From a virus: DNA of 32,614 nucleotides. Shown here one piece after another: positions 598-24,600 of the stretch (positions are counted from its first letter, which is position 1; each line of letters opens with the position of its first letter). The stretch is taken from the IMG/VR virus record IMGVR_UViG_3300020428_000048, positions 1 to 32,614 of that record, one strand, 5' to 3'. The notes below the pieces were generated by a model that worked only from the letters and a program-made list of their open reading frames with translations, did no database searches and had not been told where the DNA came from. The translations under genes and the position numbers were made by a program.

Positions 598-634
598 AGT
601 TTTCCACAGAAAGTATCATAAACTGTGGAAAACT
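598..634. repeat. Perfect 12-bp inverted repeat carrying two DnaA-type boxes
   Basis: The left arm 598-609 (AGTTTTCCACAG) and right arm 623-634 (CTGTGGAAAACT) are exact reverse complements separated by 13 nt. Each arm contains TTTTCCACA, the 9-mer known as the cyanobacterial DnaA box. No T-run follows, so it does not look like an intrinsic terminator of the upstream operon. It fits a protein-binding palindrome or an extruded hairpin. Confidence 0.8.
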
Positions 635-671
635 ATTGTATTATGATGTTAAATAGCGTTTTAAATGGTCT

Positions 672-679
672 TATAAATA
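672..679 (+). promoter_or_regulatory. T4-type late promoter motif TATAAATA
   Basis: This is an exact match to the T4 late -10 octamer, read by sigma factor gp55 in T4. No gene starts close downstream; the nearest credible start is at 994. It may drive transcription across the box cluster, or it may be a chance match in AT-rich DNA. Confidence 0.4.
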
Positions 680-841
680 TACATCTTCGTTGTAAAGGTT
701 TTCCACAATGTTGTTAATAACTGGATGTAATATGTGGAATAAGTGTGTATAAAGGGCGTTATATTGTGGAATAATTGTTGATAAGTAGTGGTGATAATAG
801 GATGATTAAATGTGTAGAATTCTAGTGATTTTAGCGAGCGT

Positions 842-871
842 AGTATAACACGAACTTGCGAAATATGTCAA
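842..871 (-). promoter_or_regulatory. Minus-strand sigma70-type promoter
   Basis: On the minus strand, TTGACA (871-866) and TATACT (847-842) are separated by 18 nt. Transcription would run leftward through the DnaA-box cluster and antisense to the 106-aa gene. No reading frame of note lies on that strand, so any product would be a non-coding or primer RNA. This is inferred from the motif only. Confidence 0.45.
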
Positions 872-889
872 GGGTTTTTTTACATTTTT

Positions 890-918
890 CTGACAGGTTT
901 TCCACACAAAGTTATAAC
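890..918 (+). promoter_or_regulatory. Sigma70-type promoter with a DnaA box between -35 and -10
   Basis: CTGACA (890-895), a 17-nt spacer and TATAAC (913-918). The box TTTTCCACA at 898-906 lies wholly inside the spacer, so a protein bound there would compete with RNA polymerase. The promoter is in tandem with a stronger one at 937-965. Confidence 0.45.
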
Positions 919-993: not shown

Positions 994-1167
994 ATGACAG
1001 TTACTAACAACAACTGGACGAAGAGTAAGTATAGAATAACACTGGAAATTGATGCGTTCGATGACTTTAACCCCAGACAGATTGCGTGGGATAAAGTGTT
1101 ACAAATGGGAGACAATGAGCAGGTACAAAGTTACATCGAAGACTTATCGAATCCCGTGAGTTGGTAA
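994..1167 (+). CDS. Small hypothetical protein, 57 aa
   Basis: Small acidic protein of unknown function. The frame is open from a TTG at 937, but that TTG is the -35 hexamer of a consensus promoter and cannot be the start on that transcript. The first ATG after the predicted transcription start is at 994, giving a 57-residue product with the core YRITLEIDAFDDFNPRQIAW. A compact strand-turn-helix fold is plausible, with no cysteines and no catalytic motif. I recall similar small proteins with a DDFNP motif from cyanophage genomes, but cannot assign a function. There is no clear Shine-Dalgarno sequence. It is likely expressed early. Confidence 0.65.
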   Translation: MTVTNNNWTKSKYRITLEIDAFDDFNPRQIAWDKVLQMGDNEQVQSYIEDLSNPVSW

Positions 1168-6322: not shown

Positions 6323-9300
6323 ATGGCAGAGAATAGAATTCAATTTAATAACATTGTTCAGAATCAATTACCTCAATATGTAAGGGAGGAATATCCTTTA
6401 ATTGAGGAATTTTTGAAGCAGTATTATATTGCCCAAGAGTTTGATGGTGCTCCTATTGATTTAATTCAAAATATTGACAAATATATTTCACTTGACAAGA
6501 CAACAAATTTAGTTGAATCTGTTGAATTGCGTACAGAACTTCAGGAATATGATAAAACCATTGAAGTTGTCTATAATACAGGAACTGAAGGATTTCCTGA
6601 TTCTTATGGTCTTTTAAAAATTGGTAATGAGATAATAACATATACGGGCAAAACTGATTATACATTTACTGGATGTATTAGGGGATTTTCTGGAATTAGT
6701 GATTATATTTCAGATGATAATCCAGAATCATTAGTATTTGAATCAACAACTGCTGCACGACATTCAAATGGTGTAGAAATTCATAATTTAAGCAATCTTT
6801 TTCTAAAAGAATTTTTAAAGAAAACAAAACGTCAATTTTTACCACTTTTAGACGAAAGAAAGTTTGATGATCAATTAGATCAAAGCACTTTTATAAAACA
6901 ATCAAAAGATTTCTTTAGTAGTAGAGGAACAGATAGATCTTTTGAGATATTATTTAAATCTCTTTATAATAAAGAGGTAGAAGTAGTAAAACCAAGAGAA
7001 TTACTTTTTACACCTTCAAATTCAGATTATAGAGTTACTAATGATTTAATAGTTGAAGCTATTGAAGGAGATCCAACAAATCTTGAACTAGCAACCTTAA
7101 TTCAGCAACCATATGCTTTTGGATCTGGAATTGAAAAGGCATATGCACCTATAACTGCAGTTGAGACAATTGTTGCTAATGATGGTGCGACTTTTTACCA
7201 ATTAAGCATCGATGCAGGATATAGTAGAGATATTTCTGTTGATGGTGCAACTTATGGTAAGTTTTCAGCAGTTCCAAGAACTAAAAATATAGGACAAATA
7301 TCTGCAGGATCAACTTTCTTCGATGTTGATTCAACTGTTGGATTTGGAACCACTGGAGAGTTGTCAGTTACTTATAATGATGAAAGTATTGGAATAGTAT
7401 CATATAGTTCCAAATCACTAACTCAATTTTTTGGAGTTACTAATGTAACTGGAAATATTCTAGATGCAACAAGTATTGGAATTGATACCTGTGCATATGG
7501 TCAATCTACCCTTGATCCAACAAAGAGAATAAAGGTAAGAGTAAATTCAGTTATTAACAGATTAGAATATCCTGAAAATGCTCATTATTACAATGCAGGA
7601 GATACTGGTAAAATATCTGCATTAGGTAGAAAGTCTCGTAATTTTAAAACAAATAATTGGTTTTATAACAACTATGCCAAGTATAATGTAAAAAGTGTAT
7701 CTCTACTTGATGCGTCTGACCAAACATGGGATATTCTTTTAAATGTTGATCATTCATTTAAAGTAAGCGATTCAATTACAATCACTGGTCAAGATGGTGC
7801 AGATAAGGTAGGTGAGGTTACTGATATTACTTCATCAAAATCAGTAACGATTAAAGGTCAAGGTGGATTAAACACTGTAGAAAGTTATACTATTTTCAGA
7901 AATATATTAAAAGCAGCAACAGTAAATTTTGTAAAGGCAAGAGAATTTGCATGTAATATACAAAATGTATATGAGACAGATGAGAATGTATTAGTAGCAT
8001 CTTCATCACTACCATCATATACAGTTAATACTAATGATAGAACTGTTACATTTAGTGGAACTTTTGTTGGAACGGAGTTTATAATTACAACAGGATTAGA
8101 TCATGGATTATATACTGGAGATCCTGTATATTATGCACCAAATACTGTAATATCAACCATATATGATGGTTTTGGAAACCCTACTGATACTTTAGTAAAT
8201 GGTGATGAATTGTTTGGTGAGGGTTTATATTTTGCATATAGAGTAAACAGTTCAACAATAAAACTTGCAAAGAGTAGAACTGATATTTACAATGACAAAT
8301 TCGTCGAAGTTGAGAGTTCAACCACAGTTACTGATAATACTTTACAACCATATGATTTTAGAAATAAGACTCTAGAGTCTCAAAAACTTTTAAGAAAGAT
8401 TTCTGAACCTATTCATGATAGATCAGTAAAACCAGAAACAAAACCAGGTTACAATGGAATTCTGTCTAATGGAGTAGAGATACTAAATTACAAATCAGCT
8501 GATCGAGTTCATTATGGTCAAATTGATAAAATTGATGTTCTTGATCCTGGTCTTGATTATGACGTTGTAAATCCACCTTCATTATTAATTAAAGATCAAA
8601 CTGGAACTGGTGCTACTGGTAATGTTGCGGTTAGAGGTACTTTAACTCAATTAAGAATTTTAGATACTGGATTTGGATATTTGGATGTACCAAAGGTAAC
8701 AATATCTGGTGGTAATGGAACTCCTTCTTCAGTTTTAGTAAATATGAAGAATATTGACCATTCGGTAGATTTCTTTGCTGATGGTTCTTCTGCTCAAGTT
8801 GGTTTAGGCACTACAGGAACTATTGGACAGACCATTGGATTTAGTACTTTCCATAAATTTAGAAATGGTGAAAGAGTAATATACGATTCAGTCAACCAAC
8901 AAGGCGTTGGTGGAATGTCAACAAACGCAGAATACTATGTTTCTACATTTGTTGAGGAAGGTAATACAAAACAGAGTTTCACGAAAGTAAAATTATACCC
9001 AACATCAAGAGATGCATTGGCAGGTATCAATACTGTTGAATTAACTTCATTTGGTGTAGGTAAGCAATCTTTAAGATCTTTTGATCATAAATCTGTAGTT
9101 GCTGGTGTCAATGTTGTATCAGGTGGAGTTTATGAAAATAAACAAAGAAAGGTTGCTGCTGCTACTGGAATAAGCACTTCTAAAAATGAAATTATAATTA
9201 AAGACCATGATTATAAAGATGGTGAAATAATTAAGTATACTGCTGGAGATAATGGAATTATAGGTCTTACTGATGGATCAGAGTATTATGTTTTAAAGAT

Positions 9301-12300
9301 TGATGATGATAAGTTTAAATTAGCAAATGTTGGTGTTGGCACTACTAATGGTGTTGATTATTTTTATCAGTCTGGACAATATGTTGGTTTATCATCCATA
9401 GGATCAGGAACGCATACATTCAATTATCCTGATATAACAGTTACTGTATCTGGTAATGTTGGAGTTGCCTCTACTGGATTGGAAACTTTTCAAGCAAATG
9501 TTCAACCAATCATCAGAGGACAGATTACATCTGTCAATTTAGATAATCAAGGTAGTGGATATGGATCTGGTGAAATTATTAATCATAATAGAAAACCAGA
9601 AGTTACTCTTATATCTGGATCACAAGCAGAAATTCTTCCTATTGTGGTTGATGGGAAAATAACAGAAGTTGTTGTTCTCAATAAAGGTAAGAAATATAGT
9701 TCTCCTCCTGACATAAGAATCACTGGTGATGGACAAGGAGCTGCAGTAACTCCAATATTATCTGATGGTTTATTAAATTCAGTAAAAGTAATTGAATCTG
9801 GTTCTGGGTATACTCAACAAAATACTTCTGGAATAGTAGTGTTCACTGGAAGAGGTGCTGAATTTGATCCACAACTTCAAACATGGACAGTTAACCTTGT
9901 TAAGAAACTGGAAGCTTTTGTAGAAGAAGATGATGGATTTATAGAAAGAGGAACTAATAGAGGGTTTGGATTACAATATGCACACTTATACATTCCAAGA
10001 AAATTCAGACAAAATGTATATTCTGTTGATCAAGATGGAAATACTGTATGGGGACAAAAAGATTTAACTAGACAACAAGGTCAAGAGCAAATAGCAGAAA
10101 AACACTCCCCTATTATTGGTTGGGCATATGATGGACATCCAATTTATGGACCTTATGGGTATATCACAAAAGAAGGTGGTTTAGTAAGTAAGTTAAAAAG
10201 TGGTTATGTAGAAGAAGCAGTTAAAAAAACTAATAGACCATCTGTTGCTGTATTCCCACCAGAATTTTTTGTAGAAGACTTTACTTATAAACCAAAAAAT
10301 GAAGAAACAATATTAGATCAAAATAACGGAAGATTTTGCGTAACTCCAGAATATCCAAATGGAACTTATGCATATTTTGCAACCATTGATTCAATAGTAG
10401 CACAAACTGCTCCATTTAGTGGATACTTTGAACCAGTATTCCCATACTTTATTGGAAATACATTTTATGGTAGACCTGATGAATTTAACTTTAGTAAAGA
10501 GTCCAATCAAGATGAATTTGATTTAAATCAAACTGAATATTTTAGAAATACTAAACCCTATAACCTAATTGAAGGTAAAATAAAATATAAGTATCTAACA
10601 TTACCAAACAATTTAGAACAGACAGTAGATGTTAAAGGAGTTACTGCAGGTAAAATTGAAGAGGTTGGTATAATTACTGCTGGTACTGGATATAGAGTAA
10701 ATGACGAATTAGTATTTGATAATGACGGGACTGGTGGTTTTGGTGTTGCAGCAAGAGTATCAAAAGTAAAAGGAGTATCTGTTGACTCTATAAGTGTTGC
10801 TACTAGTTCTATTACTAATGTTGAGATATATCCAACAGGAAAAAATAAGTATACTCTCTACACAACTAATCCTCACAATTATAATAATCTTGATATAGTA
10901 TCAATTACTGGATTATCAACATCAACTACTGGTCTTGAAGGTGCTTATGTTGCTGGTGTTACAACCACTACATATGTATTTGCTGGAGTAGGAACCACTG
11001 GTGGTGGTGGTATAGGAACCGCAGGAGCAAGTGGAATAGTAACTCATTTTAATATTGCTGGTAGAGATCTTGGTTTTGATCAGATTAGAGAGAATGATAT
11101 TGTTGGTATTGGAACTGAAGAAGTAAGAGTAATAGAGGTTCTTAAGAATGCTTCTGCACTTAGAGTTATAAGAGGAACAAATGGTATAAGTGCTGCTCAT
11201 ACTGCAGGTGCAGTTATGACAGTTAATCAAAGACAAATAAAGATAGATTCTGGATTTAAGACGGATTATCAGTCCAAAGTAAATACGCAATATTACTTCA
11301 ACCCAGAACAAGCTGTTGGACTTGGATCTACTGCTGGTGTTGGTATTGGAACTACTATATTCTTTACTGGAATCACATCAACCAATCTTGGAATATCTTC
11401 AATTTACATTCCAACTCAAGCAGTTTATCTTCCAAATCATAATTTAGCAACAGGAGATAAAGTAACATATTCTCCAGGCACTGGTGGTCAGGGAATTCAT
11501 TATTCTGAATCGGGACATACGACAATAGGATCAACTTCAGGAGTTACGAAAGCAACTGATGGGCAAGAATTCTTTGTTGCAAGATTTAGTGATACTTTAG
11601 TTGGTTTAGCAACTGTACGAGTTGGATTAGGTACAACTGGAATTTACATTGGTCTTGAAACTGGATCAATTGGTGGTAGAAACCAAACTCCAGTATTCTT
11701 CAGAACTATTGGTGCTGGTAACAGTCATAGTATTAAAACTAACTATGTTCCAATAACAGGTGAGATTGTTAGAAATCTTGTAACTGTTGATACTGGAATA
11801 TCTACTCATGGATTACATGTTGGGCATCACGTAGATGTTTCTGTAAATGCTGGAGCATCTACATCGTTTGTTTTCAATTATGATGACTATCATAGAAAAC
11901 TTATAGTAAATCCAAGAGAATTTACTGGTGGTGATGTAACTACAACCACAGATTCAATCACAGTTAAGGATCATCATCTTGAAACTGGTCAAAAAATTAT
12001 TCATACTTCTGGTGGACCTGCTGCAGGACTAGTTGATAATAAGGTTTACTATGCAGTTAAGGTTGATAAAGATACCATTAAGTTATCAGATACTTATTAT
12101 AATTCTACTCAAGGAATTCCAGAAACTGTTGGAATAGGAACTACAGGGATTGGTGGTACCATTAAACCAATTAACCCTCCCCTAGAGGTCTACAGAGACG
12201 CTACAGTAACGTTTACACTTGCTGATGGATCATTAGGTTATGAAGTACAAGGAACTTCATATCCAGCATTCCAATTGAATTTTTATAAAGATAGTGAATT

Positions 12301-15300
12301 CTGCTATCAATATGATAAAAATGCTCTTGAGAAGAATTTTAATGTTCAAAGAACTGGAACTATTGGTGTTGATGGAACAGCAAAAGTTACTTTGACAGTT
12401 AATGAAGATAGTCCAAAACTTTTATATTATAAGTTAGATCCTGTTGAGGTAAGTAACTTACCAACTATAAAATCGGAAATAAACATTGATGATGAAGTCG
12501 ATTATAACAATCAATTTGCAACTAAAACAAGTTTATATAATGGAACATATAGAGTTTCTTCTGGAACAGGAAATACTCAATTCTCATACAGTGTAAACAG
12601 AATTCCAGAGAAAACTTCTTATCTATCTACAGATAATGCATTCATAACATATGAAACTGATTGCACTCATACTACTGGACCGATTGCACAGATTGAAATA
12701 AAGGATGGTGGTAAAAATTACTACAACCTTCCAGGAATTACGACTGTTACTACTGGTGTTGGTAAAAATGCAATTTTAGAACCATCTAGTACATCTATTG
12801 GTAAGATTAAAACAAATAAAATTAATAAAATTGGTTTTGATCTCTCTATAGACAAAACAGTTAGACCATCAGTTTCTCTACCAAATCTAATAGATATTGA
12901 ATCATTTGCTTCTTTTGATTCTATTGGAATTTCTTCTCAAGGTAGAGGTTATTCAGCTGCTCCACATATTGTAGTATTGGATGGAAAAGATAAGACTGTA
13001 ATTAATGATGTAGATCTCAAATACTCATTAGGTGATACTTCAGTAAAAATATTGAAGAATACCTATGGAATGAATAATATATCTCCAAGACTAGTCCCTA
13101 CTGCAAATACAAATGGTGTGGGAATTAGTACTGTTGGATTTAACACAACTACTAAATTTGCAACTGTAACATTAGATGTTGGATTTAGTACAGCAAACAC
13201 ATTCCCATTCGTTGTTGGTGATAAAGTATTAATTGAAGGTGTAAGTGTTGGTGTTGGATCAACAGGTAAAGGATTTAATTCATCTGCATATAATTACAAA
13301 CTATTCACCATAACATCAACAGATCCAAATATTGGTGGAGTTGGTGCTACTGTATCATACAGTCTTGATGGTGATTATAAAGAAGGTGAGGTTATAGGAC
13401 TTTATGATGATCAAAACTCTGGTGGTAGAATAATTGCAGAAAAAGCATTCCCAATTTATACACCAAAACTTAAGTTTAATGACTATGCAATTGGTGAAAC
13501 AGTAGAATCAGATACTAGTTCAGGTTCTGTTGAATATTGGGATAGGCAAAATGGAGTTTTAAAAGTTTCTACAACCGATAATTTTGTTGTTAATGAAAGA
13601 ATAAAAGGATTATCATCAAATACTGAAGGTATTGCTTCTTCTATAACAACATACAATTCTTCTTTTGAGTTAAGTCCAATAACAAGAGTTGTTAAAGGAT
13701 CTACAACTGTATCAGGTTTCTTGAATGAAGGAATTCAAAGAGTACAAGATAGTCTTTATTATCAGAACTTCTCATATGCTTTAAGGTCTGAAGTTGATTA
13801 TGATAAATGGGATGATGCAGTAGGTTCTACTAACCATACTGCTGGATTTAAGAAATTTGGTGATTATCAATTAGTTACTCCTGCTTCTGATGATTCTGGT
13901 CCAAGTGGAATGGTAGTTGGTGTATCATCTAATGCTATTGAAATTACTAACGAATTAGTTGGACTTGGAGATTTAAATTGTGTTCATGATTTTGATAATG
14001 TAAAAGAAAATGTCTTAAATCTTGGTGGTGGAATTTCTTCTGATGAAATAATATTCTCTAGTAGAATATTGACTGATTATTTTGAATCTGCAGGAAATAG
14101 GGTTCTGTTAATAGATGATATGAGTGGAATATTTAATAGTAATCCACGACCTAATGCATTTAGTACAATTGATACATTCCCATTTTTAGAACATAGATCA
14201 TTAAAATACTTTTTGTTCTATAGAGATAGGAGATTTACTGCAGAAAGAGAGTTGATGGTTGTCACTCTTACTCATGATGGTCAATATTCATACATGAATC
14301 AATATGGTGGAATTGATACTAAAGAACCTATTGGAAGATTTGATTTTGCAATTGCTGGTTTAGATGGTCAATTACAATTCTATCCTTTCAATTATACCAT
14401 TAATGATTTTGATATTGGTTTTATTGCTTATACATTAGATGATAATATTTTAGGTATAGGTACAACGAATTTGGGTGGTGTTGTTGATATTGATACAAGT
14501 AGTTGTTCTACCTATGATTCTAGTGGTGGAACAGGTATTACAACAACTTTAGTATCTGTTGCACACACATACAGATCAATGAAACTTTTAGTATCATTGA
14601 CAGATGCAAATAATGAACATCAGTTTAATGAACTTAATCTTGTTCATGACAATAGTGATGTGTATGGTGTTGATTATGGTGAACTAACCACTACAATGCC
14701 AATCACTGCTACTCCAGGATTTGGAACATATTATGCTCATATTGATGGTACAAATATGGTTGTTAAGTTCATACCAAGAAATAATGGTATTGGAGTAACA
14801 ATCAATACAATTCAAGTAGGGATACACAGCAACCATGCACAAGGTATTGGAACAGCAACTCTAAAACATGCTCTTATAGAAGCAAGAACCACAAATATTG
14901 CATCTTCTGGTAGTCCAGGTATTACAACGGTTGGTGTATATGATGCTAATTATGATGCTGCATATTTCATTCTTCAGGTTACAGACTCGACAAATAAGAG
15001 ATACGTAATGTCTGAACTCTTAATGTGTGATGATGATAATGATAAGGATGGATCAGGTCAAACTTATATGGTTGAATATGGTAATGTTGAGTCACATACT
15101 GGTTTAGGTACATTTGGAACCAAGATGCTTGGGGATACTAAAACATTATACTTCAAACCAAGAGCAGGAATTGCTGTTAGTGTAACTGCATATATGAATG
15201 CAATGGCATTTGTTGATGATACTAATGATAATATTGACTTTACTAATGGTATGATTAGAACTGGTTTTTCTCAATATGAGGGAACCGAAAATGCTATTAA

Positions 15301-18300
15301 GAGAGAATTTGGTTTAACACATGAATTAAATCCAATATTCGAGAAATACTTTACTGGTAATGATACTACTGTTGTTAATCTTTCTGCAGATACAATCAAT
15401 CTTCCAAACCATTTCTTCGTAACTGGTGAGGCAGTTAAGTATCATCACGTTGGTGGTATTACATCTGCTATTGGTATTGCACAAAGTTCTTTTGCTGGTA
15501 TAGGTAATACAACATTATTACCCGAAGATGTATTTGTTATTAAAATTAATGAAGATAAGATTAAACTTGCAAGTAGTGCTCAAAATGCATTAAGAAGAGT
15601 TCCTATTTCATTAGACCTTACAAGTGTTGGTATTGGTACAAGTCATAGATTTGCTGCTACTAATCAGAATGCTAAAGCAGTAATAACGATTGATAATGTA
15701 ATTCAATCTCCTGTTGTTGCAACAGCAATAACTACAGTTCTTGCTGACCAAGTAACTTCAATCGATGATCATCTGAAACTTAGTGGAATTACCTCATACT
15801 ACGGATCAGAATTCATTCAAATTAATGATGAAATAATGAAGATTGAAGGTATTGGTATTGGTGAAACTAATCAAATTAGAGTTCGTAGAGGGTGGTTGGG
15901 AACCAAGATTGGAGCTGCTGCTACTGGTGATCTAGTAACGAAAGTTGTTGGAAATTATAATATCATCAATAATAGTTTGACATTCGCTGAAGCACCATTT
16001 GGTAATGTTCCACTTGGTTCAACTACTAATGCACCTGATGAAAGAGATTGGAGTGGTATATCAACCAGTTCAAGTTTCCATGGAAGAACATTTATGCGTT
16101 CTGGTGTAGAAGATGAGACAAATGAAACTTACTATAGAAACTTTGTTTTTGATACTGTTTCAAATAAATTCAACGGTATTGAGAAATCATTTAGACTTTA
16201 TGATAGTGGAGAAGATGTTACTGGAGTATCTACCGAAAATGCTGTACTTTTAGTTAATGATATATTCCAATCTCCTGGTGCAAGTAATGATTATGTAATA
16301 GAAGAATCTGGTGGTATTAGTTCAGTTAGATTTACGGGAGTTGCTGCATCTATTGGAAATGATGTTAACACTGCAGGTATTCCTCTTGGTGGTGTTATTC
16401 TTTCAGTTGGTTCTACAGAGGGAGGTGGATATCAACCACTCGTAGCTGCTGGAGCAAGTGCAATTATTGTATCTGCAGGAGTTACAGCAACAAAAGGAAC
16501 TATTTCAACTATTGGTGTTGCAAACAGTGGATCTGGTTATAGAGCAGCAATAGAATCTGATATTCTAACTGAAATAGCATCTCCAGTGGGTGTTGGATCA
16601 ACAGTAATTTACCTTAAGAATCAAAATAGTGTCTTTGGATTACTTGATGTATTGAATAATGGAGATAACTGTAGAATAGGGGTAGGAACATTTACAATTC
16701 CTGTTGATATTGTTTCTGTAGGTGGAACATTTGTACGTATTGGTTCAGCTGGCACCTCTCCTCATATTATACCTGTAGACACTTCAGTTAAAGTTGCAAT
16801 AACAACTGCAACAGTTGGTTATGTTAATATTAGGGCAGAGATTAATGAACTTCAGGATGGTGAGTATATTGGTGTAGCAACTGCTGCATATAATCCAGTA
16901 ACAGGTATTACTACAATAACAACTATTGCTGAACATGGTTTAAGTGAACTTGGGTATATTAAGATTAGAGATAAGAGTCTTGCATTTAGTTGTAATGCAG
17001 GTGTTGGTGTTCATACCTATTCTGGCGGAACTGTTGGTGCTGCATTTACTGACGATGGTAATAATGCATATACTGTTACAGACGCTGCTTATGTTGGATC
17101 AACAGGTCTCTTAACATTAACTATAGGATCACATAGTTTAACCACCAGTAATGACATCTTTATTGGTGAAAATAAAATATGCTTTACTTGTAGTGAAGAT
17201 AATCATGCAACAGATCATTGTTACCCTCGTTCAACTGATCCAGCATATAATACTGGACTTGATATTCTATCAAAAACCTCTACAACCGTTACTGTTCGTG
17301 TTGGTATTGGATCAACTACAGATGCAAAACTCTATCCAAGAGAGTCTGATCCAATAAGTGATAGATGGTTACAAACAACTAATGTTAGTGCAAAATCATT
17401 TGAAGTACAAGTTCTTGATAAGGTACCTTCTACAAATCAATCAACTCATATATTCCAGTATGCACATCCTAATGCGATTATAATTGGAAAGAGTATTCCA
17501 GAATATCATGTTGGATTTGCAACTATCATGACTGGAACTGGTAATATATCTACTAACGTTAGTATAACAAATACTGAAGCAAGATTCTATTCCCAGAGAG
17601 CAATATCAGATGTTAAGTATCAAGCAGCATCTGGTTTAACAACTGTTACCACATCAAGACCTCACTCATTATTATATGGTGATGAAGTATTTGTATCTGG
17701 TATTGCGTTTACTTGTGATTATGCACCTGGAGTTAATGTTACTGGTGCAGCATATAGTGCAGCAAGTGGAATTATGACTGTTACCACTTCTGCTGGTCAT
17801 GGTCTAACAACTATTGGAACTAAATCAAGCACTGTTCTTCTAACTGGTATCGCATTTACGTGTCAATTAGACAATGGAGCATCTGAACATGTTTATCCAA
17901 GAACAACAGATCCAACATATAATGGTAATAAAGTTCTTGAAGTTTTGAGTAGCACTCAATTTGTAGTTAATGTTGGTATCTCAACTGTTCCAACATTCTA
18001 TAAATCAGGTGGACTTGCTCAACCAGCAATTATAGCACCTAGAAAAACTGATAGAGCATTTACTGGAGAACCAATTATTCGAATTGTAAGTCCAACATCA
18101 TTTGAGATTAAGAGTGGTATATCAACTAGAGAACATAATTATGCAAGAGGTGGAACGGTTGATAAAGTAACTAATCTTATATTCGATGAACCACGTTCAT
18201 ACCAAGACATACCACTATTCTACTCTTCATCTTCAGTTTCTGGAGTTGGATCTAATTCATTCGTAGATATTGTTGTTGGTCAAGGAGCAAGTGTACTCGA

Positions 18301-20038
18301 CTTCTCTATTGAGAGTAAAGGATATGGTTATGGTGTTAATGAAATTCTAACGGTTCCTACTGGTGGACTTACAGGTATACCAACAACTTCTGCTTATAAT
18401 GATAATGAATTCCAACTTACAGTTCAAAAAGTATTTGCTGATGAATTTACTGGTTGGACTGTTGGAGAATTGCAACTATTAGATAGTCCCCAAAAGAATT
18501 TTGATGGATCAAAGAAAGCATTTAATATTACTCTTGCAGGTACTTTAATATCAATTCTTGCCAAGAGAGGATCAAGAATTAATATTCAAGATGTTCTTCT
18601 TATATTTGTTAATGACGTACTTCAAGTTCCAGGTGAAGGATATGAATTCCCTGGTGGTAGTTTAATTACCTTTACTGAAGCACCTAAACCTGATGATACA
18701 TGTAAGATACTGTTCTATAAGGGAACTGGTGATACTGATGTTGTTTTCGTAGAAATTATTGAAACTGTTAAGAAGGGTGATAAACTTACAATTAGTCCTA
18801 ATCCTGATAAGGGACATCCATATTATTGGGAAGAAGACGCTAGAGCAGTTCTTCGAGTTGATTCTACTGATAAAGTTACTACTCCAACTTACAATGGACC
18901 AGGAAATACTTCAGATGATACTTTAGAAAGACCAGTTAAATGGTGTAGACAGACTGAAGATAAGATTATTAATGAAATTGAAATTGGTAAGGATAGAGAA
19001 TTGTATGAAGCAGTAATTAATCCAGTTGCTCACATTACCAAATCTGTTGGTATTGGTTCTTCATCAGTATACATGAGTAATGTACAACCATTCTTTAACC
19101 CTGCTAATGAAAATGACCAAACAGTTACTTTCCAGAATAAAATCAACTTTATTAATCAAGATACAAAACTTCCTGCATTTGCTAGTGCTAATGTATCTGG
19201 ATTAGGAACTATAACCTCTATAACAATATCGGATGGTGGTGCAGGTTATTCGACTGCAACAGTAAGTGTTGCAAGCACTGTTGGTATTGGTACAACAACT
19301 CAAGCATTTGGTAATGTTGTAATAAGTAATGGAGAAGTTACTGGTGTTGGATTAACCAACCCTGGTTATGGATATACTTCATCAGATGCACCAATTGTTC
19401 TTATTAGTCCACCAACTCTTGATGATTTTGAGGAAAATGCAGTCAACCAATGGTATGGAGATCATGGTGTAATTGTTGGATTTGGAACCACTGCAATAAC
19501 TGGTGTTACAACACAGTTAGTCTTTGATTTACATATTCCACTCAATTCATACTTAAGAGATTCAACTCATGCTGCTAGTGCCATAACCAAGAGTGGAATA
19601 AAAGCAAATGATTACTTTATGGTATTTGATAGTAATATTGGTTCTGCATCAACTACTATCAGAGCGATGGATAATCAAACTGGAACTGTGATTGGTATTG
19701 GAAACTCGCATATAGATAATATATACGTTGTTAAGAGTGCTACTGATATAGTAGGACCTGCTGGTTATGATGGTCTTGGATCAACAACTCTTCGAAGAGT
19801 AATTTGTGATATTCAAGATCGTTTCACAGGGTATTCTGGTATAACTACATTAAATGGTGGTAATCCTTATTTGGGTGCCTTCAGTTGGGGTCGTGTTGAT
19901 GTTAAATCAAGAGCAGGACTAAATTCCTATACTGCATACACTTTGGGTGGTATAGGAACTAACGATGTTACTGGAATTCAAACTTCCATGAAAGTTCAAA
20001 GAACTGCATCGTTAAAATACAAAAATTATGATACCTAA
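6323..20038 (+). CDS. 7: Giant gp7-like baseplate/tail protein with YHYH-type domain, 4571 aa
   Basis: Probable baseplate wedge protein in the gp7 position (between gp6 and gp8), hugely extended. Residues 10-240 contain LPQYVREEYPLIEEFLKQYY and FFSSRGTDRSFEILFKSLYN followed by KEVEVVKPRE. As recalled, these resemble the C-terminal part of T4 gp7 (FYSTKGIEASYKFLFKVLYN then EEVEIE). A YHYH-type domain lies near residues 1261-1280 (SPIIGWAYDGHPIYGPYGY). The rest is beta-type and low in Cys, and is built of recurring modules: 'GxGY' repeats, 'DHxLxxGDxVxY' modules, 'IGxEII...RG' modules, VGIGTT linkers and an FTC/YPR block at about 16.9-18.2 kb. The C-terminus (CDIQDRFTGYSGITTLNGGN, GAFSWGRVD) resembles other cyanophage giant tail proteins. 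The frame is intact over 13.7 kb. There is no clear Shine-Dalgarno sequence. T4 gp7 has 1032 residues, so the gp7 label covers only the N-terminal part. Confidence 0.8.
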   Translation: MAENRIQFNNIVQNQLPQYVREEYPLIEEFLKQYYIAQEFDGAPIDLIQNIDKYISLDKTTNLVESVELRTELQEYDKTIEVVYNTGTEGFPDSYGLLKIGNEIITYTGKTDYTFTGCIRGFSGISDYISDDNPESLVFESTTAARHSNGVEIHNLSNLFLKEFLKKTKRQFLPLLDERKFDDQLDQSTFIKQSKDFFSSRGTDRSFEILFKSLYNKEVEVVKPRELLFTPSNSDYRVTNDLIVEAIEGDPTNLELATLIQQPYAFGSGIEKAYAPITAVETIVANDGATFYQLSIDAGYSRDISVDGATYGKFSAVPRTKNIGQISAGSTFFDVDSTVGFGTTGELSVTYNDESIGIVSYSSKSLTQFFGVTNVTGNILDATSIGIDTCAYGQSTLDPTKRIKVRVNSVINRLEYPENAHYYNAGDTGKISALGRKSRNFKTNNWFYNNYAKYNVKSVSLLDASDQTWDILLNVDHSFKVSDSITITGQDGADKVGEVTDITSSKSVTIKGQGGLNTVESYTIFRNILKAATVNFVKAREFACNIQNVYETDENVLVASSSLPSYTVNTNDRTVTFSGTFVGTEFIITTGLDHGLYTGDPVYYAPNTVISTIYDGFGNPTDTLVNGDELFGEGLYFAYRVNSSTIKLAKSRTDIYNDKFVEVESSTTVTDNTLQPYDFRNKTLESQKLLRKISEPIHDRSVKPETKPGYNGILSNGVEILNYKSADRVHYGQIDKIDVLDPGLDYDVVNPPSLLIKDQTGTGATGNVAVRGTLTQLRILDTGFGYLDVPKVTISGGNGTPSSVLVNMKNIDHSVDFFADGSSAQVGLGTTGTIGQTIGFSTFHKFRNGERVIYDSVNQQGVGGMSTNAEYYVSTFVEEGNTKQSFTKVKLYPTSRDALAGINTVELTSFGVGKQSLRSFDHKSVVAGVNVVSGGVYENKQRKVAAATGISTSKNEIIIKDHDYKDGEIIKYTAGDNGIIGLTDGSEYYVLKIDDDKFKLANVGVGTTNGVDYFYQSGQYVGLSSIGSGTHTFNYPDITVTVSGNVGVASTGLETFQANVQPIIRGQITSVNLDNQGSGYGSGEIINHNRKPEVTLISGSQAEILPIVVDGKITEVVVLNKGKKYSSPPDIRITGDGQGAAVTPILSDGLLNSVKVIESGSGYTQQNTSGIVVFTGRGAEFDPQLQTWTVNLVKKLEAFVEEDDGFIERGTNRGFGLQYAHLYIPRKFRQNVYSVDQDGNTVWGQKDLTRQQGQEQIAEKHSPIIGWAYDGHPIYGPYGYITKEGGLVSKLKSGYVEEAVKKTNRPSVAVFPPEFFVEDFTYKPKNEETILDQNNGRFCVTPEYPNGTYAYFATIDSIVAQTAPFSGYFEPVFPYFIGNTFYGRPDEFNFSKESNQDEFDLNQTEYFRNTKPYNLIEGKIKYKYLTLPNNLEQTVDVKGVTAGKIEEVGIITAGTGYRVNDELVFDNDGTGGFGVAARVSKVKGVSVDSISVATSSITNVEIYPTGKNKYTLYTTNPHNYNNLDIVSITGLSTSTTGLEGAYVAGVTTTTYVFAGVGTTGGGGIGTAGASGIVTHFNIAGRDLGFDQIRENDIVGIGTEEVRVIEVLKNASALRVIRGTNGISAAHTAGAVMTVNQRQIKIDSGFKTDYQSKVNTQYYFNPEQAVGLGSTAGVGIGTTIFFTGITSTNLGISSIYIPTQAVYLPNHNLATGDKVTYSPGTGGQGIHYSESGHTTIGSTSGVTKATDGQEFFVARFSDTLVGLATVRVGLGTTGIYIGLETGSIGGRNQTPVFFRTIGAGNSHSIKTNYVPITGEIVRNLVTVDTGISTHGLHVGHHVDVSVNAGASTSFVFNYDDYHRKLIVNPREFTGGDVTTTTDSITVKDHHLETGQKIIHTSGGPAAGLVDNKVYYAVKVDKDTIKLSDTYYNSTQGIPETVGIGTTGIGGTIKPINPPLEVYRDATVTFTLADGSLGYEVQGTSYPAFQLNFYKDSEFCYQYDKNALEKNFNVQRTGTIGVDGTAKVTLTVNEDSPKLLYYKLDPVEVSNLPTIKSEINIDDEVDYNNQFATKTSLYNGTYRVSSGTGNTQFSYSVNRIPEKTSYLSTDNAFITYETDCTHTTGPIAQIEIKDGGKNYYNLPGITTVTTGVGKNAILEPSSTSIGKIKTNKINKIGFDLSIDKTVRPSVSLPNLIDIESFASFDSIGISSQGRGYSAAPHIVVLDGKDKTVINDVDLKYSLGDTSVKILKNTYGMNNISPRLVPTANTNGVGISTVGFNTTTKFATVTLDVGFSTANTFPFVVGDKVLIEGVSVGVGSTGKGFNSSAYNYKLFTITSTDPNIGGVGATVSYSLDGDYKEGEVIGLYDDQNSGGRIIAEKAFPIYTPKLKFNDYAIGETVESDTSSGSVEYWDRQNGVLKVSTTDNFVVNERIKGLSSNTEGIASSITTYNSSFELSPITRVVKGSTTVSGFLNEGIQRVQDSLYYQNFSYALRSEVDYDKWDDAVGSTNHTAGFKKFGDYQLVTPASDDSGPSGMVVGVSSNAIEITNELVGLGDLNCVHDFDNVKENVLNLGGGISSDEIIFSSRILTDYFESAGNRVLLIDDMSGIFNSNPRPNAFSTIDTFPFLEHRSLKYFLFYRDRRFTAERELMVVTLTHDGQYSYMNQYGGIDTKEPIGRFDFAIAGLDGQLQFYPFNYTINDFDIGFIAYTLDDNILGIGTTNLGGVVDIDTSSCSTYDSSGGTGITTTLVSVAHTYRSMKLLVSLTDANNEHQFNELNLVHDNSDVYGVDYGELTTTMPITATPGFGTYYAHIDGTNMVVKFIPRNNGIGVTINTIQVGIHSNHAQGIGTATLKHALIEARTTNIASSGSPGITTVGVYDANYDAAYFILQVTDSTNKRYVMSELLMCDDDNDKDGSGQTYMVEYGNVESHTGLGTFGTKMLGDTKTLYFKPRAGIAVSVTAYMNAMAFVDDTNDNIDFTNGMIRTGFSQYEGTENAIKREFGLTHELNPIFEKYFTGNDTTVVNLSADTINLPNHFFVTGEAVKYHHVGGITSAIGIAQSSFAGIGNTTLLPEDVFVIKINEDKIKLASSAQNALRRVPISLDLTSVGIGTSHRFAATNQNAKAVITIDNVIQSPVVATAITTVLADQVTSIDDHLKLSGITSYYGSEFIQINDEIMKIEGIGIGETNQIRVRRGWLGTKIGAAATGDLVTKVVGNYNIINNSLTFAEAPFGNVPLGSTTNAPDERDWSGISTSSSFHGRTFMRSGVEDETNETYYRNFVFDTVSNKFNGIEKSFRLYDSGEDVTGVSTENAVLLVNDIFQSPGASNDYVIEESGGISSVRFTGVAASIGNDVNTAGIPLGGVILSVGSTEGGGYQPLVAAGASAIIVSAGVTATKGTISTIGVANSGSGYRAAIESDILTEIASPVGVGSTVIYLKNQNSVFGLLDVLNNGDNCRIGVGTFTIPVDIVSVGGTFVRIGSAGTSPHIIPVDTSVKVAITTATVGYVNIRAEINELQDGEYIGVATAAYNPVTGITTITTIAEHGLSELGYIKIRDKSLAFSCNAGVGVHTYSGGTVGAAFTDDGNNAYTVTDAAYVGSTGLLTLTIGSHSLTTSNDIFIGENKICFTCSEDNHATDHCYPRSTDPAYNTGLDILSKTSTTVTVRVGIGSTTDAKLYPRESDPISDRWLQTTNVSAKSFEVQVLDKVPSTNQSTHIFQYAHPNAIIIGKSIPEYHVGFATIMTGTGNISTNVSITNTEARFYSQRAISDVKYQAASGLTTVTTSRPHSLLYGDEVFVSGIAFTCDYAPGVNVTGAAYSAASGIMTVTTSAGHGLTTIGTKSSTVLLTGIAFTCQLDNGASEHVYPRTTDPTYNGNKVLEVLSSTQFVVNVGISTVPTFYKSGGLAQPAIIAPRKTDRAFTGEPIIRIVSPTSFEIKSGISTREHNYARGGTVDKVTNLIFDEPRSYQDIPLFYSSSSVSGVGSNSFVDIVVGQGASVLDFSIESKGYGYGVNEILTVPTGGLTGIPTTSAYNDNEFQLTVQKVFADEFTGWTVGELQLLDSPQKNFDGSKKAFNITLAGTLISILAKRGSRINIQDVLLIFVNDVLQVPGEGYEFPGGSLITFTEAPKPDDTCKILFYKGTGDTDVVFVEIIETVKKGDKLTISPNPDKGHPYYWEEDARAVLRVDSTDKVTTPTYNGPGNTSDDTLERPVKWCRQTEDKIINEIEIGKDRELYEAVINPVAHITKSVGIGSSSVYMSNVQPFFNPANENDQTVTFQNKINFINQDTKLPAFASANVSGLGTITSITISDGGAGYSTATVSVASTVGIGTTTQAFGNVVISNGEVTGVGLTNPGYGYTSSDAPIVLISPPTLDDFEENAVNQWYGDHGVIVGFGTTAITGVTTQLVFDLHIPLNSYLRDSTHAASAITKSGIKANDYFMVFDSNIGSASTTIRAMDNQTGTVIGIGNSHIDNIYVVKSATDIVGPAGYDGLGSTTLRRVICDIQDRFTGYSGITTLNGGNPYLGAFSWGRVDVKSRAGLNSYTAYTLGGIGTNDVTGIQTSMKVQRTASLKYKNYDT
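6608..6694 (+). repeat. 'IGxEII...RG' module, copy 1 (protein-level)
   Basis: The encoded GLLKIGNEIITYTG...CIRGFSG is a short beta module. Related copies occur in the same gene at about 11086-11224 (VGIGTEEVRVIEV...VIRGTNG) and 15795-15943 (FIQINDEIMKIEG...VRRGWLG). A further copy lies in the DUF4815-type gene at about 28096-28220 (YLQIGNEIIQYN...ERGPNP). The similarity is at protein level and the DNA has diverged. Confidence 0.6.
8085..15600 (+). repeat. 'DHxLxxGDxVxY' modules, five copies (protein-level)
   Basis: Five copies within the giant gene, at about 8085-8290 (LDHGLYTGDPVYY...STIKLA), 9180-9350 (KDHDYKDGEIIKY...DDKFKLA), 11415-11640 (PNHNLATGDKVTY), 11950-12120 (KDHHLETGQKIIH...KDTIKLS) and 15385-15600 (PNHFFVTGEAVKY...EDKIKLA). 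Each has a His-containing turn, a GD/GE turn, an EYYV-like strand and an ending close to D-x-I-K-L-A. The spacing is irregular, which suggests old duplications that have drifted. Confidence 0.65.
10103..10162 (+). other. YHYH-type domain motif in the giant protein
   Basis: Residues 1261-1280 (HSPIIGWAYDGHPIYGPYGY) match the core of the YHYH domain, a family of unknown function found in secreted bacterial proteins and in large cyanophage tail proteins. Flanking Trp/Tyr-rich sequence and a likely second half (FVEDFTYKPKNEETILDQNN, then FCVTPEYPNGTYAYFATID) extend to about 10390. Confidence 0.75.
16900..18170 (+). repeat. FTC/YPR module block in the giant protein
   Basis: Tandem units with an initial GHGL/PHSL-like turn, a strand with Phe-[TS]-Cys, and in several copies His-x(1-3)-Tyr-Pro-Arg-x-Thr-Asp-Pro followed by a strand ending V-x-V-G. 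Clear copies are FTCSEDNHATDHCYPRSTDP, FTCDYAPG and FTCQLDNGASEHVYPRTTDP, with degenerate forms FSCNAG and APRKTDR. These are among the few Cys residues in a Cys-poor protein. Comparable YPR-TDP units are known to me from cyanophage tail proteins. Confidence 0.65.
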
Positions 20039-20044
20039 TAAATA
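20036..20044 (+). promoter_or_regulatory. Late promoter-like motif before gp8, overlapping a stop codon
   Basis: TAATAAATA contains the TAAATA core of the late -10. It begins on the TAA stop of the giant gene and ends 17 nt before the gp8 ATG. Confidence 0.45.
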
Positions 20045-20061
20045 ATAAAAAAACTGTCAAA

Positions 20062-21612
20062 ATGGCCGCCATTATAACAGATCAGATAAGAATATTAAAT
20101 GCCAAAAACTTTGTTTCGGGTGTAACATCCAGTGCAAATGCATATTATTCATTCATTGGATTACCCAATCCAAATGATTATCAATCTGATTGGGATACTA
20201 CCCCTCCTTCACCGAAGGATAACTTTACTGAAGAGAATGATTATTGGGATACTATGGTTGCACTGAAGAAAATTAATTCTTCAGATGTAAGACAAGTTAT
20301 TCCGAAGAGAAATTGGTCTTCGGGAACAACTTATGATATGTACAGACATGATTATAGTAGATCAAAGACGGCAGCAGTTTCGGGTGCAACTAATCTTTAT
20401 GCATCATTTTACTATGTAATGAATACTGAATATCAGGTTTATATTTGTTTGCAGAATGGAAGTAATCCAGATAATCCAGCAGGAAGACCATCATTAGATG
20501 AACCAACATTTACTGACTTGGAACCAAGATCAGCAGGATCAAGTAATGACGGTTATGTTTGGAAATATATGTATACAGTCACTCCAAGTGATGTTATAAA
20601 ATTTGAAACCACTGATTTTATGTCAGTTCCTGCAGATTGGTCTACTGCTACTGGTACTGCTGCAGTTAGAGATAATGCAGTTGATGGATCAATTAAAATA
20701 GTTACAGTAACTGATCGTGGAGTTGGTCTTGGTACTGCAAACAGAACTTATACAAGAGTTCCTATTAAAGGTGATGGCAGCGATGCTGAATGTACTGTTG
20801 TTATAAACAATGATTCTAAAGTTGATACCGTTACTGTATCAAACCAAGGATCGGGATATACTTATGCTAATGTTGATTTGATAGCAGGTGGAGTTCCAAC
20901 AGGAACCACTATACCAAAGATGGATGTCATTATACCACCACAAGGAGGTCATGGTGCAGATATCTACAGAGAACTTGGAGCATTTAATGTTCTTTTATAT
21001 TCAAGAATTGAAAATGATAATGAGAACCCAGATTTTGTAACAGGAAACCAAATTGCTAGAGTTGGTGTTGTAGAAAATCCAGAAGTTAGTACAGGAACTT
21101 TACTTTCTGTTGATAAAGCAGCAGCAGTAAACGGTTTAAGATTGACTGGTACTGGATATAGTTCTGCAACATTTACTGCAGATGCTTATGTTACTCAAAC
21201 AATTGCAACTGGTTCAACTGCTGTTGGACGAGTTATAAATTATAATCAAACAACTGGAGTATTAAAATATTGGCAAGACAGATCTGTATCGGGATTTGCT
21301 ACAGTTGGTACTGCAGAAACTAATCCAAAATATGGATTTAATCTGAATCAATTTACAGCAACACCTGGTAGTGGTGGAAGTAAAGTAATTGTTCCTTCTA
21401 CAGGGTCAAATTTAGAAATTGACTCGGCCTTCACTGGTATCTCTACCATAATAAATAATAAAACATACTACCTTGGTCAATCATTTACTGCTGGAATAGC
21501 GGGTCCTGAAGTTAAAAAACATGCAGGAAACATCATTTATGTCGATAATCGACCAGCAATAACCAGATCAGCCAACCAAAAAGAAGATATTAAAGTTATC
21601 TTGCAGTTCTAA
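20062..21612 (+). CDS. 8: Baseplate wedge protein gp8, enlarged
   Basis: Homologue of T4 gp8, an outer wedge component that acts as a dimer. It has 516 residues against 334 in T4. Conserved N-terminal parts are NAYYSFIGLPNP, WDTMVALKKI, DVRQVIPKRNWSSGTTYDMY and NDGYVWKYMYTVTPSDVIKF followed by FMSVPADW (about residue 190). The C-terminus VKKHAGNIIYVDNRPAITRS...EDIKVILQF closely parallels T4's MRHSGEMIYMENRPPI...EEINILFTF. Two stretches have no T4 counterpart: about 200-290, with the GxGY module SNQGSGYTYANVDL, and about 340-480, with an SGA-like module (TGSTAVGRVINYNQTTGVL). Its position between gp7-like and the DUF4815-type gene fits T4 order. Confidence 0.92.
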   Translation: MAAIITDQIRILNAKNFVSGVTSSANAYYSFIGLPNPNDYQSDWDTTPPSPKDNFTEENDYWDTMVALKKINSSDVRQVIPKRNWSSGTTYDMYRHDYSRSKTAAVSGATNLYASFYYVMNTEYQVYICLQNGSNPDNPAGRPSLDEPTFTDLEPRSAGSSNDGYVWKYMYTVTPSDVIKFETTDFMSVPADWSTATGTAAVRDNAVDGSIKIVTVTDRGVGLGTANRTYTRVPIKGDGSDAECTVVINNDSKVDTVTVSNQGSGYTYANVDLIAGGVPTGTTIPKMDVIIPPQGGHGADIYRELGAFNVLLYSRIENDNENPDFVTGNQIARVGVVENPEVSTGTLLSVDKAAAVNGLRLTGTGYSSATFTADAYVTQTIATGSTAVGRVINYNQTTGVLKYWQDRSVSGFATVGTAETNPKYGFNLNQFTATPGSGGSKVIVPSTGSNLEIDSAFTGISTIINNKTYYLGQSFTAGIAGPEVKKHAGNIIYVDNRPAITRSANQKEDIKVILQF

Positions 21613-21618
21613 AGAATT

Positions 21619-24600
21619 ATGTCACAGCAAACAAATCTAAACGTAGCACCGTATTTTGACGATTTTGATGCTGCAAACGATTATCATAGAGTTTTATTTA
21701 AACCTGGCGTTCCAGTACAGGCAAGAGAATTAACGACTCTACAATCAATATTACAGAACCAGATTGAAAAATTTGGTCAACATTTTTTCAAAGAAGGTGC
21801 AAAGGTAATACCTGGAAATACGGGATTTTCTCAACGATATAAGTGTGTCCAATTAAATAATGACTATCTTGGAGTCCCTGTAGAAGCATATGCTGATCAA
21901 TTAGTTGGAACAAAGATAACTGGAGAAAGGTCTGGTGTTACTGCATTTGTTGATAAAATTTTAACATCAGCAGATTCTGAAAGAGGTAATTTAACACTTT
22001 ATATCAATTATTTAAATTCAAGCACTGCAAATAATTCAACAGAAGAATTTTCTGATGGAGAAAATTTAACATGTAATGCTACAATAACATCAGGTCTTCT
22101 TGGTAATACAACAATTGCTGCTGGAACTCCATTTGCACAAACAATATCTACAGATTCAACTGCAACTGGATCTTCATTCCAGATTCAAGATGGTGTTTAC
22201 TTTGTCAGAGGAAATTTTGTTAATGTAAATCAAGAAACTCTTATATTAGATCAGTATAGTTTTAAACCATCATATAGGGTTGGACTCTTTATTAACGAAG
22301 AAATAATAAATGCTGATATAGATGAAAATTTAAATGATAATTCTCAAGGTTTTAATAACTATTCTGCACCAGGTGCTGATAGGTTAAAAATATCAGTTAG
22401 TTTATTTAAAAAAGCAACTACCGATTTTGATGATGATAGTTTTGTAGAACTTGCCACTATTGTAAATGGTGTAATAAAAACTCAAAATAAAAGAGGTGTT
22501 GGTGGGGGTGGAGCAGGTAAAGAAGATATTAATGACACTCTTGCAAGAAGAACATATGCGGAGTCTGGTGATTATTATGTAAAACCATTTGATTTGACTG
22601 TATTAGATTCATTAAATGATGGTCTAGGTAACAAAGGTCTTTTTGAATCTGGTCAATATACTTATGGTGGAGCAACTGCATCTTCTGATTTAGCACTTTA
22701 CAAGTTCTCTCCAGGTAAAGCATTTGTTCGTGGGTATGAGATTCAAGTTGATAATTCAACATTTTTGGATGTTAAAAAACCAAGAACAACTAAACTGGTT
22801 AAAGATCAATCAATAATTTATAATACTGGTCCTACTTTAAAATTAAACAGAACTCTTAGAAATCCAGATGTTGGTATTGGTAATACTTACGTCTTAAGTC
22901 TCCGTGACCAAAGAGTTGGTCTTACTTCAGATACAACTGCTGTTGGAAGTGAAATTGGAGTTGCAAGGGTTTATGATTACAGATTAGAATCTGGATCATA
23001 TGATGCTAATAATGGATCTTTAAATGAATGGAAAGTATCATTATATGATGTTCAAACTTATACTTCTCTTACATTAAATCAAAATGTTACTCTTGCAGTT
23101 CCAACTTTTGTTAAAGGTGCTAATAGTGGTGCTACTGGATTCATAAAATCTGCAGTTAGTAGTAGCACTTCAGTAACTTTATATGAAACAACTGGAGACT
23201 TTATTAAAAATGAAGCATTATTATTTGATGGTATTGCTAACGGTAGAATAATTACCGCAATAACTCAATATAAATTATCTGATGTAAAATCTGTTTTTGG
23301 GTCAAATGACAGACTTACTGGTGGTGATAAATTTAATGCCGATGTTGTTCAGTCTGATAATATTGTTTTTGGAGCAGCAAGAATAGGGCAAGAAAGTAGT
23401 AATGCAAGTGTTGTAACTTCTGCAAATCCACTATTTCCTGGAGCAGTATCTGTTGGTAATTTAGTTAAATATACCGATACAAAATCTAGTAATGATCCAA
23501 TTTTTGGAAGAGTGACTGTTGTTGGAAGCAATAGTATCACTATCGCTGGAGTAACAACTGTTCCTGGAATTGCTAATGGTAAGTTACCTGTCGCAAATTC
23601 AGCAGGTGTTCATACTAATGGTTTTCAAGCATCTGATTTTACTTTATTAACCACTGATCTTACAGGTTCTCTTGATAATACATTATATACTCATTTACCA
23701 AGAACTTCTATTTCAGAGGTTGATTTAACAGATGCAACATTAACAATTAGAAAAACTTTTACAGTTAATATAACTAACGGACAACTTGATTCTTCTACTA
23801 CTCCAACTGCAGGAACTAATGAAACATTTTTAGCATTTGATGAAGAAAGATATTCTTTAATAAGATCTGATGGAACTACGGAAGCAGTAAATTCTTCCAA
23901 TTTTTCATTTGCTGGTGATGGAAAAACATTACAGATTTATGGTCTTGGTAGTAATGATACTGCTGCAACCCTTATTGCTACTTTAAGAAAAGCCAAACCT
24001 AAAGCAAAATTAAAGATAAAAGATAGAGTAAAATCAATAATAGTCAATAAGTCCTCAAAAGAGGGATCTGGATTTGGTGCTACCACATTGAATGATGGTT
24101 TACTTTATGGAAACTATCCATTTGGAACAAGAGTTCAAGATGAAATTATCTCTTTGAATGTTCCTGATGTAATTGAAATACATGGTATCTTTGAGTCAGA
24201 AAATACTGGAGATCCATCTGCACCAGCAATTAATTTAACTTCAATAACCAATCTTACAGGTACAACTTCTGATTTATTAGTTGGTGAAGTAGTAAAAGGT
24301 GCTAGAAGTGGTGCAATAGCTATAGTTGCGGAAAAAAATACTTCTGCAAAAATTACTATTCTTTATAAGAATGATTTAAGGTTTAAAGAGGGAGAAGCAC
24401 TTACTTTTGCCGAATCAAATACTACAGCAGTAGTTTCTACTTTAGAATCAACTAGTTTTGATGTTTCTGCAAATTATACTTATGAAAGTGGTCAAGAACC
24501 AACTTTCTATGATTATGGTAGAATAAACAGAAAAGTGGATTCTGAACCTGCAGAGAAAAAATTAATAATATATTTTAAGAGTTGTTCTTACGATTCTAAT

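Follow-up and report, generated by a model that had tools for sequence, protein, structure and literature searches.

The gene-free region and its features

The DNA analysed here, which we refer to as the window, is a virus record of 32,614 bases and represents a fragment of a phage genome. It encodes gp25, gp6, and further baseplate and neck proteins, identifying it as a cyanomyovirus (T4-like), and its best DNA matches are Synechococcus and Prochlorococcus myoviruses, in agreement with the early hint of a cyanobacterial host. Within the window, positions 535–993 are considered gene-free because the plausible neighboring genes stop at 534 and resume at 994. The original prediction called this the only long gene-free region, a description whose reach is the 32,614-base fragment. 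The region contains matches to a DnaA box on both strands and two divergent sigma-70 promoters, the latter known as sequence only. The features are as follows, with column identities taken from an alignment of 51 relatives.

535–993, no strand: gene-free region with the DnaA-box array and promoters; nearest plausible genes end at 534 and start at 994; conserved block-wise in relatives
600–608, plus strand: DnaA box 1, TTTTCCACA, left half of an inverted pair; exact match, 93% column identity
624–632, minus strand: DnaA box 2, TTTTCCACA, right half of the inverted pair, 24 nt from box 1; exact match, 95% column identity
672–679, plus strand: T4-type late-promoter core, TATAAATA; only copy in the window, 81% column identity
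699–707, plus strand: DnaA box 3, TTTTCCACA; exact match, 93% column identity
733–741, minus strand: DnaA box 4, TATTCCACA (TTTTCCACA in many relatives); exact match, 83% column identity
765–773, minus strand: possible DnaA box 5, TATTCCACA, not conserved in place; exact match, 22% column identity
805–861, no strand: conserved block, TTAAATGTG...GTGATTTTAGCGAGC...; 70% column identity
842–871, minus strand: leftward sigma-70 promoter, TTGACA-18-TATACT, with an extended -10, reading through boxes 5 to 1; 11 of 12 consensus matches
898–906, plus strand: DnaA box 6, TTTTCCACA, between the two promoters, moderately conserved; exact match, 42% column identity
937–965, plus strand: rightward sigma-70 promoter, TTGACA-17-TATAAT, ahead of the 57-aa gene; 12 of 12 consensus matches
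994–1167, plus strand: 57-aa early-type gene (phrog_12516), used as an unbiased bait for relatives

The original prediction described a six-box cluster beyond chance in gene-free DNA, with one pair of boxes forming a palindrome, and each of these points is borne out. The cluster at 600–906 comprises four copies of TTTTCCACA and two of TATTCCACA, where shuffles of the whole window predict 0.69 and 1.41, respectively, and the 32,614-base record holds zero further copies of either outside it. Under first- to third-order models, the position-corrected probability is <4e-6 for four boxes in 307 nt and <3e-10 for six. Likewise, boxes 1 and 2 (600/624) form a perfect 12-bp inverted repeat, AGTTTTCCACAG-N13-CTGTGGAAAACT. 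The two copies of TATTCCACA had also been described as an in-phase pair at 32 nt; this spacing is correct, but boxes 5 and 6 show little positional conservation (22% and 42%), and the 32-nt pair is therefore not a conserved feature.

The two promoters are shared with relatives: the leftward promoter scores highly in 33 of 48 (and in zero shuffles), and the rightward promoter was found in all 48. Behind the leftward promoter there is no minus-strand frame longer than 34 aa, hence no evident gene of its own. The conserved block that it overlaps includes a TTAGCG core (831–836) with 92% identity, which is common to distant cyanomyoviruses and lies downstream of the box position; the TTAGC element is too degenerate for a scan of the collection, in which many matches would be expected by chance, and that scan was excluded from the statistics. 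An inverted repeat (AGCGAG/CTCGCT) surrounds the leftward -10 at 832–861, and by eye its arms seem to covary in some relatives (ACCGAG/CTCGGT, GGGGG/CCCCC); it is missing in several others. Searches of Rfam gave only weak chance matches to miRNA families, all outside 535–993, and Pfam placed the 57-aa gene in no family above its cut-off. Further perfect (12 of 12) sigma-70 promoters occur at 1423–1452 and 2513–2541, with genes of the early-type region. Two giant genes occupy 6323–20038 (4571 aa) and 21619–29256 (2545 aa); the 4571-aa product is a baseplate-wedge protein (phrog_2885), with segments common to several other virion proteins.

Conservation of the boxes and the protein that they would bind

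Relatives were collected through the adjacent 57-aa gene (994–1167), a bait that is blind to the boxes. In these relatives, the 39.7 kb upstream of the gene contain 284 copies of TWTTCCACA and 462 kb elsewhere contain 22, making the upstream density ~150 times higher, and 46 of 48 loci (near-duplicates removed) have at least two boxes. Of the 51 alignment rows, 46 have the inverted pair at a distance of 23–26 nt, 43 have box 3, and 30 have box 4. Column identity reaches 83–95% in boxes 1–4, compared with ~44% in the other columns and 41% in the spacer within the inverted pair; boxes 5 and 6 vary among relatives, and most of the window-like relatives have five or six boxes. The array is thus neither matched in density elsewhere nor absent from close relatives, two of the outcomes that had been named as speaking against it. 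When 2.9 million viral contigs were scanned blindly for the inverted pair, at least 120 stretches matched; among those listed, 83 have at least three reading frames resembling those of cyanomyovirus isolates, and the pair lengths form sharp peaks at 32–34 and 43–44.

The identification of the motif as a cyanobacterial DnaA box, part of the original prediction, is supported by the literature, which lists TTTTCCACA as the cyanobacterial DnaA box (PMC6323995), and by comparing the phage boxes directly with host oriC. Upstream of dnaN in 80 picocyanobacterial loci, GTTTTCCAC, TTTTCCACA, and the trio TAGTAGTAG are among the 9-mers repeated most often. When all 27 single-base variants of the box were counted in the phage regions, TATTCCACA (21), TTATCCACA (14), and ATTTCCACA (13) were found and hardly any other, and the same three variants occur 7, 4, and 15 times, respectively, in Prochlorococcus oriC. 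Variants at the 3′-end, such as TTTTCCCCA and TTTTCCACT, occur in Prochlorococcus oriC but hardly in the phages; overall, the rank correlation between the two variant spectra is 0.62 without the core. Furthermore, a DnaA DNA-binding domain is present in both host genomes searched and in none of 20 phage records (T4 included). Given this distribution of the domain and the oriC-like usage of variants, a host-DnaA site is the simplest reading, and on these sequence comparisons the array very probably consists of host-DnaA-type sites.

A different possibility is that the boxes are sites for a phage-encoded protein, as was raised from the start, or for another host protein, and merely resemble DnaA boxes. 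An inverted pair at a fixed distance does resemble a dimer operator, but the near-variants in use are those of Prochlorococcus oriC, other lineages place their boxes 12–13 nt apart and in other orientations, and the phages lack a DnaA-type DNA-binding domain. These observations weaken the idea, and we regard it as improbable. As a separate matter, the contig CALPNT020000155.1, titled as a Bifidobacterium breve MAG, has a picocyanobacterial dnaN (87% identity) and is probably from a mislabelled or contaminated bin.

Map position and diversity among isolates

Boxes of this type are also found in cultured phages, and at a consistent place. All ten clusters of at least two boxes, in eight cyanomyovirus isolates (Syn9, P-SSM7, S-RIM8, S-SM1, S-SSM5, Syn1, S-PM2, and S-SM2), map to the interval from the UvsW-like helicase to gp25, which in S-PM2 spans, together with its boxes, the start of the circular record. 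The window itself has no uvsW because the record is a fragment. The annotation of T4 places oriF inside the uvsW–gene 25 interval, and in T4 this interval has no box array. Many isolates have just two or three boxes, and their arrangement varies: Syn1 has three tandem boxes 12 nt apart, S-PM2 has three boxes 12–13 nt apart in mixed orientation, and neither has the 24-nt inverted pair. No box cluster was found in SynMITS9220M01, P-RSM4, or S-TIM5, or in the examined parts of Bellamy, P-SSM2, P-SSM4, P-HM1, S-SSM7, and S-CRM01; of these, SynMITS9220M01 and Bellamy retain the neighboring TTAGC block and promoter-like sequences. The array is therefore lineage-specific, not universal, and the boxes are dispensable in some lineages.

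It is worth considering in this light whether the array could be a product of chance or a by-product of nucleic-acid structure, either a hairpin or a tRNA as annotated in S-PM2. The inverted pair of the window folds into a strong hairpin (-11.3 kcal/mol, z -5), and in S-PM2 (17000–23000) a tRNA-Asn and a tRNA-Leu are annotated over DnaA boxes, with other tRNAs nearby. However, ARAGORN detects zero tRNAs in the region of the window and in the S-PM2 stretch 17000–23000, and the S-PM2 annotations over boxes therefore look like annotation errors. Likewise, Syn1 and S-PM2 keep three boxes in arrangements that differ from the inverted pair; the boxes therefore behave as protein sites, not as arms of a conserved hairpin. 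With the corrected chance probability at the value given above and the box sequence conserved across lineages, an origin in chance or structure appears highly improbable. A hairpin or cruciform as a conserved feature was considered and is ruled out by the different box arrangements of other lineages.

A candidate replication origin

What might such an array do? In our leading interpretation, to which sequence and map position lend about even chances, the region is a host-DnaA binding platform that would serve as an origin of phage DNA replication. It has a cluster of host-type DnaA boxes in noncoding DNA, as at oriC; in the isolates it occupies the uvsW–gene 25 position, as does T4 oriF; and it has a conserved leftward promoter with no gene behind it. 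That initiation of replication is the main role of the region is, by this position and anatomy, an evenly balanced proposition. At oriC, DnaA opens the duplex. In the cyanomyoviruses, host DnaA present at infection would bind the array, and a leftward (or late rightward) transcript would give rise to a primer or R-loop over it, as at T4 oriF, whose R-loop arises from a promoter transcript and primes synthesis (PMC3016281). DnaA would then keep the region open or fix the point at which the transcript stops, and the phage replisome (gp59, gp41, gp61, and gp43) would load next. The stricter version, in which widespread T4-like ocean phages have an origin that requires host DnaA and combines an oriC-type array with a T4 oriF-type promoter, is more tentative, and we place it somewhat below even chances.

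Some sequence characteristics do not support this interpretation. The original prediction had suggested GC skew as a check, and nine isolates have no GC- or AT-skew switch at the element, although permuted genomes and one-way gene order may mask one. No DnaA-trio (TAGTAGTA, with up to one mismatch) is found in 535–993, whereas it is present in host oriC. The AT fraction of the region is 0.6–0.78, with a stability z of at most ~1.5 near the boxes and 2.2 at 521–570; the 15 least stable stretches of the window lie elsewhere, and the stretch downstream of the leftward promoter is AT-rich but not exceptionally so. Duplex stability is thus unexceptional. Skew, DnaA-trio, and duplex stability provide no support for an origin, and the box-less isolates and T4, whose interval lacks the array, count against it as well. 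Overall, the first interpretation is supported in part: it holds for the identity of the motif, for the cyanomyovirus, and for a conserved array confined to one place, and it gained no support from the skew.

It is informative to compare the region with known systems. Like Prochlorococcus oriC (upstream of dnaN), it has TTTTCCACA with the same tolerated variants (TATT-, TTAT-, and ATTTCCACA) and boxes on both strands of noncoding, AT-rich DNA; unlike oriC, it has no adjacent dnaN and no TAGTAGTAG trio, but does have strong divergent sigma-70 promoters and a T4-type late core, with a phage-encoded replisome. With T4 oriF, also called ori(uvsY), it shares the uvsW–gene 25 interval and a promoter reading into a noncoding AT-rich stretch (PMC3016281). 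In contrast, T4 relies there on a MotA-dependent middle promoter and lacks an array of DnaA boxes, whereas the phage described here has plain sigma-70 promoters and DnaA-type boxes. The region also differs from T4 oriE with its iterons in that the repeats are host DnaA boxes in mixed orientation. The origins of lambda and P1 use host DnaA and thus resemble it as phage exploitation of that protein; they do so, however, with loading of the host replicative helicase and with their own initiators, O or RepA, whereas this T4-like phage has its own replisome.

DnaA is also a known regulator of transcription, and the array might instead be a switch, with host DnaA controlling the divergent early promoters or blocking the leftward transcript, thereby timing early expression of the 57-aa gene or the leftward RNA, while replication starts elsewhere. 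The two conserved promoters border the array or read into it, with box 6 in the space between and a late-promoter core inside the region. The geometry is less favorable: the most conserved boxes, 1–3, are ~135–240 nt downstream of the leftward start and 230–340 nt upstream of the rightward promoter, which is far for direct control. In addition, the leftward promoter has no protein-coding gene behind it, which argues somewhat against pure control of a gene, and the TTAGC block and promoter-like sequences persist in the box-less SynMITS9220M01 and Bellamy. A purely transcriptional role therefore seems to us rather unlikely, although less so than the alternatives considered above.

A further alternative is titration, in which boxes on accumulating phage copies would soak up host DnaA and halt new rounds of host replication. 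In E. coli, datA is a dense group of DnaA boxes that titrates DnaA, and the region has a similarly high local density of strong boxes, with five or six of host type in most window-like relatives; copy number during infection would multiply them. In contrast to the region, the chromosomal datA locus acts together with IHF and has no link to a conserved leftward promoter. For titration, the number of boxes matters and their spacing need not be fixed, so the observed conservation of spacing and orientation argues against pure titration; furthermore, the boxes are confined to one place, and many isolates have just two or three. The effect would also set in late, by which time attack on the host DNA has usually begun. 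We thus consider a sink for DnaA unlikely.

To our knowledge, T4-like phages are considered not to need the host initiator. For Syn9, prediction of a single theta origin is reported in a review (PMC2984593). In the open-access literature, we found nothing relevant on DnaA boxes in phages that are T4-like or infect cyanobacteria; origins with DnaA boxes and origins of the T4 type are each known, but a conserved host-DnaA array at the oriF position in T4-like phages is apparently undescribed there. The array points to recruitment of host DnaA by these phages to a control region of their own, most plausibly a replication origin, and defines a candidate origin of ~460 bp for abundant ocean phages. 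The site at which replication starts can now be tested, as can whether infection depends on host DnaA or removes it. If the origin does require DnaA, phage replication would be coupled to the host initiator and possibly to the host cell cycle.

Two observations concern the surroundings of the boxes. In the window, an HNH endonuclease gene (1537–2337), possibly encoding a homing endonuclease, is inserted ~0.5 kb downstream of the candidate origin. In P-SSM7 (46602/46623) and Syn1 (59749/59762), a second small box cluster lies 0.6–1 kb downstream of the first.
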